Shown here in pieces: positions 10,861-50,109 of a stretch of DNA of 62,075 nucleotides (within the stretch, counting starts at the first letter, position 1; each line of letters begins with the position of its first letter). The DNA comes from Candidatus Gastranaerophilales bacterium (GTDB taxonomy: Bacteria; Cyanobacteriota; Vampirovibrionia; Gastranaerophilales; Gastranaerophilaceae), in contig CALURJ010000012.1 in the NCBI GenBank assembly GCA_944323145.1, forward strand, positions 1 to 62,075. Direction: 5' to 3'. Position numbers and translations under genes: made by a program. The notes beneath the pieces were generated by a model. That model had not been told where the DNA came from and did not search any database. It was given only the letters and a program-made list of their open reading frames with translations.

Positions 10861-11718
10861 ATGGCAAAAATATTGGTAACAGGTGCAAACGGAATGCTTG
10901 GACAGGATTTATGCCCGATACTGGAAGATAACGGGTATGAAGTCATTGAAACAGATGTTGATTCGCTTGATATTACAAATGCAGATATGGTCAGGAATGT
11001 TTTGACGGCAAATAAGCCGGATATCGTTATCCATTGTGCCGCATATACAAATGTTGATCAAGCTGAAGAAGATTTGAAAACCGCTGAACTTATCAACGTT
11101 ACCGGAACAGAAAATATAGCTGAAGTTTGCGGTAAAACAGGGATTACGCTTGTATATATTTCAACAGATTACGTATTTGACGGAACAAAGCTTGAGCCTT
11201 ATACTCCTGATGACAGACCCAATCCGATAAATAATTACGGTATGACAAAATATGAGGGCGAAGAAGCTGTAAGAAGCTTATGTGATAAATATTATATAGC
11301 ACGTACAAGCTGGCTTTACGGACACCACGGCAAAAATTTTGTTGAAACTATGCTGAGTTTAGCTGAAAAACCGGAAATTAAGGTTGTAGATGATCAAATA
11401 GGATGTCCTACCTGGACATGCGAGCTTGCAAACGGAATTGTAAAACTCTTTTCAAAACCATACGGAACATACCATGTATGCGGTTCAGGTGCTACAAGCT
11501 GGTATGGGTTTGCAAAAGAGATTTTTGTTCTGTATAATCAATTATCCCTCTCTCAGGGAGAGGGTGCCTGTAAGGCTGGAGAGAGTTTAAAACCTTGTAC
11601 TACGGAAGAATTTCCCCGTCCTGCAAAACGTCCTGCCCATAGTGTTATGGAGAATAACGGCATTTGCAGAAGCTGGCAGGCGGCGTTGAAAGATTATCTC
11701 AGCTTGCGTAATGTTTAA
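10861..11718 (+). CDS. rfbD: dTDP-4-dehydrorhamnose reductase with in-frame repeat insertion
   Basis: RmlD performs the final NAD(P)H-dependent reduction to dTDP-L-rhamnose. TGANGMLGQD (residues 7-16) binds the cofactor. STDYVFDG and Tyr126/Lys130 (YGMTK) form the catalytic site, and RTSWLYG, DDQIGCPTW and PRPAKRPAHS complete the family pattern. Residues 228-243 (QLSLSQGEGACKAGES) have no counterpart in RmlD proteins I know. They are encoded by a 42-base palindromic repeat (11546-11587) related to the intergenic element at 14997-15087. The reading frame is preserved, and the conserved C-terminal segment resumes directly after it, so the enzyme may still be active. The gene end overlaps ompH-like by four bases, convergently. 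Confidence 0.94.
   Translation: MAKILVTGANGMLGQDLCPILEDNGYEVIETDVDSLDITNADMVRNVLTANKPDIVIHCAAYTNVDQAEEDLKTAELINVTGTENIAEVCGKTGITLVYISTDYVFDGTKLEPYTPDDRPNPINNYGMTKYEGEEAVRSLCDKYYIARTSWLYGHHGKNFVETMLSLAEKPEIKVVDDQIGCPTWTCELANGIVKLFSKPYGTYHVCGSGATSWYGFAKEIFVLYNQLSLSQGEGACKAGESLKPCTTEEFPRPAKRPAHSVMENNGICRSWQAALKDYLSLRNV
11546..11587 (+). repeat. Palindromic repeat half-element inside rfbD
   Basis: CCCTCTC-TCAG-GGAGAGGG is followed by TGCCTGTAAGGCTGGAGAG. It aligns nearly base for base with the right half of the 14997-15087 element (CCCTCTCCC-AAA-GGGAGAGGG then TGCCTGAAGGGCGGGTGAG). Its 42 bases equal 14 codons and keep the frame of rfbD. Confidence 0.85.
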
Positions 11719-12473: not shown

Positions 12474-13622
12474 ATGGCAGGATTTGACATTTCACAGTTA
12501 AAAGGAACACCTTTATATGCATTGGCTAAAAATGCCAATGTTTACGGCGGAAAAACTTTAAGTAAAACAGAAATGGTATTTTTCCAGCAGCAGTGTAAGG
12601 AAATGGGTTTTAAGCCGGAAAAATTCGGTCTTGAAATTGTTACGGAAGATATTGAAGGTGAAAATTTTAAAGAAACCAGAAAAAATCAGGAAAAGCTTAC
12701 TGATTCTATTAATGATGCTTATAAATCTCAGTTCGGGAGAAAAAATAACGCCGTTGATACAGCTAAAGGCTCTGAAACAAAAGCTTATGCAATAATTAAT
12801 ACTGCAAAAGAAGCTTTTACAAAAGCTCATGGTGATAATAACAAGTTTGTACCGGATAGTTTGGGGCAGAGACCTAACTTTATGGATCCGCAGTATAAGG
12901 ATAATCTAACAAAATATGTTACGGATTTGAATGTCTGGGCTAATAAAGTTGCAGAGCAGTACCGTAATGCGGCTGATATGACAAGTAAAGATTTAGCTGC
13001 GATGATCATGAATAATGAAGATAAAAATGCTGAATTGGTAATGAAAAATGATAATGAAAATGCTGAATTCAATGCTGAAGTAACTGTTAAAGTTGGTGAA
13101 GCTGTAATGGATAATTTGGCTGAATTGCAAAAACAAATTGCAGATGGTACAGCGCAAATTATTAAAGAAGTTCAAATTCAGGGCGGTGCAACAAGAGTTG
13201 CTATCAAAAATGCTAAAGGTGAAGTTATTGAAGCAGTTAGAACAGCTGAAGGTAAGTTGATGGATGAGGTTCAATGGCAAAGCTGGTACACCCGTGGTGT
13301 AGTTCTTAGAGAAGGAGAAGAAACACGTCGTGAAGTTCGTAACGAAGGAGCAAAGACGCGTTATGAAGTTCGTACAGAAAGCAAAAAGACACGTCGTGAA
13401 GTTCGTAGAGAAGGAGAAGACACCAGACAGGAAATCCAGCAGCAGGCCGATAGAATTATTGAGACCTTAGATCCTATCGGAAAACAACGCGCTGTCAAAG
13501 CAGTAAAAGATGCAGCTGCTGCAGCTGGAAAAAAACTTGGAGAATTTATACAAGAAAATCCGGAATTTACGATTCCAATCTTAGGTATTCCTCTTTGGGC
13601 TGCTAAAAAAATGTTTGAATAA
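12474..13622 (+). CDS. Hypothetical helical protein with 11-residue repeats
   Basis: The family is not recognised. ATG 12474 is chosen because AAGGAG lies nine bases upstream; an upstream ATG at 12435 lies inside the leader hairpin and has no ribosome site. The 382-residue product is mostly predicted helix, with no signal peptide or Cys-rich region. Residues about 279-322 contain four consecutive 11-residue units of the form (R/N)EGxxTRxEVR, the hendecad period of straight coiled coils or amphipathic surface helices. The C-terminus is more hydrophobic (FTIPILGIPLWAAKKMF), possibly a membrane-associating tail. The gene is monocistronic, with a repeat promoter before it and an intrinsic terminator after it. 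A structural or membrane-surface role is speculation. Confidence 0.7.
   Translation: MAGFDISQLKGTPLYALAKNANVYGGKTLSKTEMVFFQQQCKEMGFKPEKFGLEIVTEDIEGENFKETRKNQEKLTDSINDAYKSQFGRKNNAVDTAKGSETKAYAIINTAKEAFTKAHGDNNKFVPDSLGQRPNFMDPQYKDNLTKYVTDLNVWANKVAEQYRNAADMTSKDLAAMIMNNEDKNAELVMKNDNENAEFNAEVTVKVGEAVMDNLAELQKQIADGTAQIIKEVQIQGGATRVAIKNAKGEVIEAVRTAEGKLMDEVQWQSWYTRGVVLREGEETRREVRNEGAKTRYEVRTESKKTRREVRREGEDTRQEIQQQADRIIETLDPIGKQRAVKAVKDAAAAAGKKLGEFIQENPEFTIPILGIPLWAAKKMFE
13308..13439 (+). repeat. Four 33-bp coding tandem repeats
   Basis: Units start at 13308, 13341, 13374 and 13407. The first three end in GAAGTTCGT, and the third base positions are also largely conserved. This suggests recent expansion by duplication rather than protein-level selection alone. 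Confidence 0.75.
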
Positions 13623-14996: not shown

Positions 14997-15087
14997 ACCC
15001 TCACCCGAATTTCAAGCTTTTACTCCGCCCAAGCCGAAATTCTACCCTCTCCCAAAGGGAGAGGGTGCCTGAAGGGCGGGTGAGGGT
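14997..15087. repeat. 91-bp palindromic element with 11-bp terminal inverted repeats
   Basis: ACCCTCACCCG (14997-15007) and CGGGTGAGGGT (15077-15087) are exact reverse complements. An inner stem ACCCTCTCCC-AAA-GGGAGAGGGT lies at 15044-15066. This is a MITE- or REP-like unit with no coding capacity; a half copy interrupts rfbD at 11546. Confidence 0.85.
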
Positions 15088-15123
15088 TATTTTTGTGTTA
15101 TAGTAATTTTATGGAGGGCATAT

Positions 15124-21415: not shown

Positions 21416-21459
21416 ACCCTCCCCTTCCCTCCCTAATTAGGGAGGGAGTAAGAGAGGGT
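21416..21459. repeat. 44-bp palindromic element
   Basis: ACCCTC and GAGGGT at the ends enclose CCCTCCCT-AATT-AGGGAGGG. It is a member of the C/G-rich palindrome family scattered through this otherwise AT-rich window. Confidence 0.75.
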
Positions 21460-50085: not shown

Positions 50086-50109
50086 TTCCCTCCCTTATTA
50101 GGGAGGGAA
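50086..50109. repeat. C/G palindrome
   Basis: TTCCCTCCCT-TATT-AGGGAGGGAA, a member of the same family as 21416-21459. It may double as a terminator for the gene before it. Confidence 0.7.

Follow-up and report, generated by a model that had tools for sequence, protein, structure and literature searches.

An in-frame hairpin repeat in rmlD of a Gastranaerophilales genome and its likely origin as the end of a DUF559 nuclease element

How can a palindromic DNA repeat come to lie inside the open reading frame of a conserved gene, and which enzyme may have carried it there? The question is raised by an uncultured gut bacterium, a member of the Gastranaerophilales (non-photosynthetic Cyanobacteria, Melainabacteria), of which we analyzed one contig (C12, 62,075 nucleotides, called the window below) of a 1.885 Mb genome. 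The gene concerned is rmlD, also named rfbD, and its identity is firm: it scores 307.8 bits against the TIGR01214 equivalog model, for which the cut-off is 224.05, and 331 bits against PF04321. Forty-two of its bases (CCCTCTCTCAGGGAGAGGGTGCCTGTAAGGCTGGAGAGAGTT) form a palindromic repeat in frame, which codes for SLSQGEGACKAGES directly after L228 and ends five residues ahead of TTEEF, the latter starting at residue 247 (Table 1). A preliminary description of the same DNA had claimed a mobile palindromic repeat at this place, and both the match to other repeats and the absence of the segment in relatives bear this out. It located the insert correctly within the coding sequence, but its residues 228-243 are off by one, and the conserved segment that it put right behind the insert is near rather than adjacent.

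Table 1. Positions of the rmlD insert and of related repeats in the window
Feature	Position	Strand	Basis
rmlD/rfbD, dTDP-4-dehydrorhamnose reductase, 285 aa, bearing the insert	10861..11718	+	TIGR01214, PF04321
Palindromic insert in frame (residues 229-242), a right-end fragment of a DUF559-type element	11546..11587	+	Alignment to the L204/L208 right end; missing in nearest relative
Main hairpin CCCTCTCTCAGGGAGAGGG of the rmlD insert	11546..11564	+	Hairpin pattern searches
Second small hairpin TGCCTGTAAGGC of the rmlD insert	11565..11576	+	Matches TGCCCGAAGGG of the L204 right end
Tail TGGAGAGAGTT of the rmlD insert, degenerate form of terminal GGGTGAGGGTT	11577..11587	+	Alignment
Miniature of 91 bp between genes, joining both ends (left, right) of a DUF559 element without its nuclease gene, ACCCTCACCC..GGGTGAGGGT	14997..15087	+	Synteny with full elements; folding z = -6.1
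Hairpin CCCTCTCCCAAAGGGAGAGGG of the intergenic miniature	15045..15065	+	Hairpin pattern search
Second hairpin type CCCTCCCTNATNAGGGAGGG, intergenic	21427..21446	.	Hairpin pattern; also flanks DUF559 genes L205 and L222
Second hairpin type, further intergenic copy	50088..50107	.	Hairpin pattern

The hairpin class to which the insert belongs is present well beyond chance in the host genome, where the pattern CCCTCNCY..GNGAGGG has 47 forward and 49 reverse matches and the reversed control pattern has none. As the preliminary description had noticed, the insert resembles the right half of an intergenic element of the window, with 82% identity to positions 15045-15088 (E = 5.6e-5 in a genome-wide search), or 80% over 40 nt by repeat search. 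Its whole length can also be aligned with the right end of the element present at two DUF559 loci of relatives (L204 and L208), with a score of 22 against a maximum of 15 for 200 shuffled inserts, and it so corresponds to an end of a hairpin element associated with DUF559 genes. In the nearest relative (G006, locus L042), whose RmlD protein is 89-93% identical, EIFVQSGLNVNLLPCTT stands where the window has EIFVLYNQLSLSQGEGACKAGESLKPCTT. The extra residues are likewise missing in most of the 30 genus orthologs that were read and in nearly all matched rmlD orthologs among 383 family genomes, and in the alignment with the solved RmlD structures 1vl0 and 3sc6 a gap of about 12 residues falls at this place. 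The comparison of relatives proposed in the preliminary description thus found the segment absent in the nearest one and in most others, rather than shared by all of them in a diverged version. It is hardly credible that the segment represents ancestral coding sequence of the usual kind, or a random indel resembling the repeat by chance. The loop does vary in length within the family, and two genomes (G024 and G240) have 4-5 extra residues there, which are free of repeats and did not count as insertions, but the E value, the shuffling control, the nearest relative without the segment and the unmistakable repeats that three other genomes have at this site speak against it. The insertion was probably recent, after the split from the nearest sampled relative.

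The junctions of the insert are unclean. The frame is preserved, as had been claimed, but through a net gain over relatives of 36 nt (12 codons) and not of 42, because a few flanking target codons differ too: seven target codons are swapped for five plus the repeat. No clear target-site duplication was seen around the insert, and simple insertion cannot explain the altered flanks. The AlphaFold model of the protein, which follows another check proposed for this locus, has a mean pLDDT of 86.6, with its lowest-confidence stretch at the insert (block mean of about 56), in a surface-type position between helix 214-231 and strand 243-246; the insert is thus predicted to form a loose, flexible loop. 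The host genome, like almost every genome of the order in this analysis, was assembled from a metagenome, and an assembler misled by a short repeat could have misjoined it inside rmlD. We consider such an artefact highly improbable since the frame is open, assemblies from other studies carry analogous in-frame inserts at the same site, and the remainder of rmlD shows purifying selection. Without the insert, the gene is 95.5% identical to that of the nearest relative, with a dN of 0.020 and a dS of 0.153, and this low dN/dS of about 0.13 indicates that rmlD is still evolving as a functional gene.

Other repeats have reached the same rmlD site in at least three more lineages. Two genomes, G031 and G277, the second from another genus, have there a single 36-nt end, CCCTCGCCCCTTGAGGGAGAGGG(C/T)TGGGG(A/T)GAGGGG, whose 12 codons specify PSPLEGEGWGEG, and a third, G004, has GTCATTGCGAGGAGGCGAAGCCGACGTAGCAATC, a repeat of an unrelated family (GTCATTGCGAG..GCAATC) which we presume may be of the CGTC-REP type. 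These repeats and that of the window are all in frame, and the rmlD insert needs three changes on a tree built from 25 genomes of the genus. The simplest reading would be that the loop tolerates insertions and that selection retains those in frame. Different REPs at about the same site have been reported in recB of Xanthomonas (PMC3733652). Two further observations concern rmlD itself. A Tyr codon (QYN/QYKK/LYN/IY) stands right before the insert site (window 11540-11545; L016, L080, L030) in all repeat-bearing alleles and in the repeat-free G024, and is missing in other relatives; elsewhere in the gene, one locus (L109 5502-5630) presents a 38-residue in-frame insert of repeat-like DNA.

The intergenic copy of the window is placed after pgk and before an epimerase gene, a spacer which contains a full DUF559 element with similar ends (ACCCTCACCCGAATTTC...) in three relatives (G005, L055/L204; G011, L208; G007, L225), the miniature in the window and in G006, and no hairpin in G012 (L054). 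Comparing the full and miniature forms at this place, the window copy appears to consist of the left and right ends, joined, with the nuclease gene gone; it has the inverted ends and the internal deletion of a miniature inverted-repeat element (MITE). The order of events at this site, deletion or acquisition, we infer. TTA occurs on both sides of the window copy and might represent a target-site duplication. No phage record matching the intergenic element was found. Rfam gave no hit above threshold: two element ends resemble the whalefall-1 RNA at 28.3 bits (window 14997-15068, minus strand) and 25.4 bits (L221 1866-1939), both scores below the gathering cut-off of 37, so membership was rejected; this RNA family might itself consist of such element ends rather than of an sRNA.

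The full-length relatives of the insert are composed of two inverted hairpin ends surrounding a DUF559 (PF04480) nuclease gene, and an inverted hairpin pair likewise surrounds a DUF559 gene on contig C9 of the host. These proteins give strong Pfam hits and a sequence match to structure 3HRL; another model of the family, PRK09767, corresponds to E. coli YcjD. Among 29 DUF559 loci of the genus, picked among the best matches, a G+C-rich hairpin lies within 150 bp upstream in 25, downstream in 20 and on both sides in 19. Hairpins on both sides were found for none of 222 control genes (Fisher p ~1e-21), to which the plasmid records contributed no countable genes, and distal windows 600-750 bp away had hairpins in 0 of 28 cases. 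These two controls replaced the permutation of upstream and downstream ends, which was over-strict because several loci have hairpins in common. In the DUF559 protein tree, the hairpin type is shared within clades (for example L204/L208/L225; L200/L214/L218; L205/L222; the PriA group; the IspE group). The only DUF559 gene found in the host genome (L211) has ends somewhat different from the rmlD insert; as a separate observation, the terminal tail of the host DUF559 protein on contig C9 (L176 1596-2048) is encoded by the repeat downstream of its gene (IASPSPLCGRGWHEVSGEG).

Such elements also occur in frame within other genes. One loop of PriA, between GIKNKI and the LLHGVTASGKTE motif, holds a full element in four species (438, 438, 435 and 534 nt, each a multiple of 3); in one of them (G017) each 36-bp end is an exact inverted copy of the other, while G011 has a short in-frame remnant at the same loop and the site is empty in other species. 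The insert-bearing PriA reading frame matched in Pfam the PriA/helicase domains and nuclease families only, with no splicing-domain family, as an intein would have, among the matches. DUF559 elements are present in the M14 carboxypeptidase of several species, DUF559 reading frames run into IspE in some, and in the host, peptides derived from the repeats occur in the linker of a two-domain ABC ATPase and close to its C-terminus. The main rival reading starts from this fidelity to certain places: DUF559 would be a homing-type endonuclease entering fixed sites (the PriA loop, ispE, the pgk-epimerase spacer), and the solo hairpins would spread otherwise, for instance by replication slippage. Homing enzymes exist among the Vsr-related PD-(D/E)XK nucleases, and the PriA, IspE and pgk-epimerase clades each keep one site across species, a fidelity that vertical inheritance with losses could explain as well. 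We judge this reading unlikely since solo ends occupy many unrelated sites, hairpins and nucleases pair by clade, and hairpin number follows DUF559 across 383 genomes. As a side observation, a further in-frame palindromic family (AGAAGGCAAGAGGGCAAG.. / ..CTTGCCTTCCTGCC) occurs in PriA of the host (L235) and of G005, G014, G015, G018, G028 and G031, in the very loop where other species have DUF559 elements.

The relation of hairpin number to DUF559 was studied at two levels, with a pattern that covers only part of the hairpin types. Within the genus, 20 to 250 hairpins were counted in each of the 16 sampled genomes with a full-length DUF559 gene, and 0 to 4 in those without it. Among the 383 family genomes, the median is 23 hairpins for the 143 with DUF559 against 0 for the 240 without (AUC 0.92), and none of 5000 permutations within genera reached the observed value; the species tree yielded no more than four independent pairs, all in agreement (p = 0.125). 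Exceptions exist in both directions: 17 of the 240 DUF559-free genomes have at least 10 hairpins and 13 of the 143 others fewer than 3, which could come from incomplete assemblies, nuclease loss or other hairpin types. Such an association may also reflect genomes open to mobile DNA, in which the nuclease is a passenger, or a guardian that tolerates or processes palindromes. DUF559 proteins, described as PD-(D/E)XK, Vsr-like nucleases, are indeed annotated as Vsr-like repair enzymes (PMC12907096), and some of their genes have no hairpin ends, but a bystander fits poorly with the flanking on both sides (19/29 versus 0/222), the exact inverted ends in G017, the clade-specific ends and the full and deleted alleles at one site, and we hold this explanation to be quite unlikely.

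A transposase of known type was also considered. The repeats are built like REPs, with a short hairpin and a conserved tail in many dispersed copies, mostly outside conserved genes and some in pairs, and REPs inside genes are documented, those tagged GTAG going with RAYT transposases (PMC3733652). That a Y1 tyrosine transposase (RAYT) moved them is very unlikely: no PF01797 match at E <= 1e-5 was found in the host genome, so RAYT was rejected as the mover there, and the family is also absent from G031 and G004. Among 32 genomes of the genus, 6 contain it, including two (G026 and G014) with only about one hairpin, and its presence does not track hairpin number.

The observed sequence identity, filled and empty sites, framing, linkage and co-occurrence point instead to DUF559. 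We propose, with a probability of roughly three in four, that the insert is the solo end of a DUF559 hairpin element which entered rmlD after the split from the nearest sampled relative, was kept in a loop and had been copied by the action of the nuclease. The full element would consist of a hairpin end, the DUF559 nuclease gene and an inverted hairpin end, in about 440-600 bp. The protein, a Vsr-like PD-(D/E)XK nuclease, may recognize the terminal hairpin and cut either at it or at the target; the whole element, or the hairpin end alone, could then be copied into a new site by repair or replication. Copies in coding genes would be purged by selection except those in frame in tolerant loops, so that the same rmlD and PriA loops would be hit repeatedly; the rmlD insert may have persisted through the lack of a stop codon in the frame used, a net length that is a multiple of three and a flexible position between helix and strand. 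All this support is comparative, and from it we infer that DUF559 moves the repeats and how it might do so; co-occurrence is the one observation bearing on whether their movement may require DUF559.

The survey of hairpin ends covered one family and 16 records of a plasmid collection. In the latter, inverted hairpin repeats were found near DUF559 genes of Deinococcus, Synechocystis, Azospirillum lipoferum, Sinorhizobium meliloti, Sphingomonas, Picosynechococcus and Pseudanabaena, and none near those of E. coli KE47, Shinella and Methylobacterium. DUF559 genes without inverted ends mean that DUF559 alone is no proof of mobility, and some members, such as E. coli YcjD, may be settled genes. The S. 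meliloti end recurs as solo copies on replicons of rhizobia, at no fewer than 887 places in 258 records, and a possible identity of rhizobial DUF559 ends with RIME is a lead. The RIMEs of rhizobia are repeated intergenic elements (PMC2573895).

Several known systems share part of these features. Palindromic repeats in frame are known in Rickettsia as well as in the ERIC, Correia and REP families, and REPs within coding sequences are documented in many species, contrary to the preliminary description, which had them known mainly from Rickettsia (PMC2229807; PMC3733652). Like the rickettsial RPE, the insert is a palindrome with an open frame, in frame in a conserved protein gene, where RPEs have a mostly neutral effect (PMC2229807), but RPEs measure about 105-146 bp and have no known mover, whereas here a 36-42 nt unit of a CCCTC/GAGGG hairpin family, in a Gastranaerophilales genome, is related to the ends of elements with a candidate mover, DUF559. 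The REP/RAYT systems (GTAG REPs, REPtrons) likewise present a short hairpin with a conserved unpaired tail, intergenic copies, an enzyme gene flanked by inverted copies and occasional insertion in genes; they differ in that their enzyme is a Y1 tyrosine transposase, and in the ends examined here we noted no GTAG tag. REPs tagged CGTC are palindromic too, lie in some cases inside genes, and were said in a 2013 survey to lack a dedicated transposase (PMC3733652), but the insert of the window does not have the CGTC tag. With MITEs such as ERIC, Correia/NEMIS and RUP, the intergenic miniature shares the derivation by internal deletion from an autonomous element with inverted ends, and in-frame fusions of these are known; here, however, the parent carries a DUF559 nuclease and not a classical transposase, and no TA or other target duplication is established. 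Finally, beside Vsr-like and homing endonucleases, DUF559 (PF04480; E. coli YcjD, PRK09767; structure 3HRL) is the very protein family concerned, but the papers found do not describe it in a hairpin-ended mobile element.

No paper linking DUF559/COG2852 to such repeats was found in the open-access literature; subscription journals were mostly outside this search, so novelty is unproven. A wider proposition, on which we are evenly divided, is that DUF559 nucleases and their cognate hairpins form previously undescribed minimal mobile elements, widespread across phyla, which enter genes in frame whole or as solo ends (rmlD, PriA, carboxypeptidase, ABC ATPase) and explain many orphan CCCTC/GAGGG repeats. 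Many bacterial genomes carry short palindromes of unknown mover, for which a protein family predicting their occurrence would be a testable one; this would explain the short peptides and the nuclease domain inserted in conserved proteins such as RmlD and PriA, and offer a route of loop or domain gain outside Rickettsia.

Some minor observations concern other genes. In the window, a hypothetical protein gene contains at 13290-13454 four copies of a tandem repeat with a 33-bp period (peptide like TRREVRxEGE). Candidates for in-coding repeats near rmlD in relatives (L042 7763, L046, L058 288, L073, L090) were rejected, being intergenic or lying in upstream extensions of pilin-like reading frames. 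Many pilin-like genes of the host (FTLAEVLITLGIIGVVAA; L122-L194) likewise have hairpins directly upstream, in a reading frame that continues into the prepilin leader (for example L128 1343-2515, L131 710-1684 and L174 799-2019), and these are possibly fusions in the start region.
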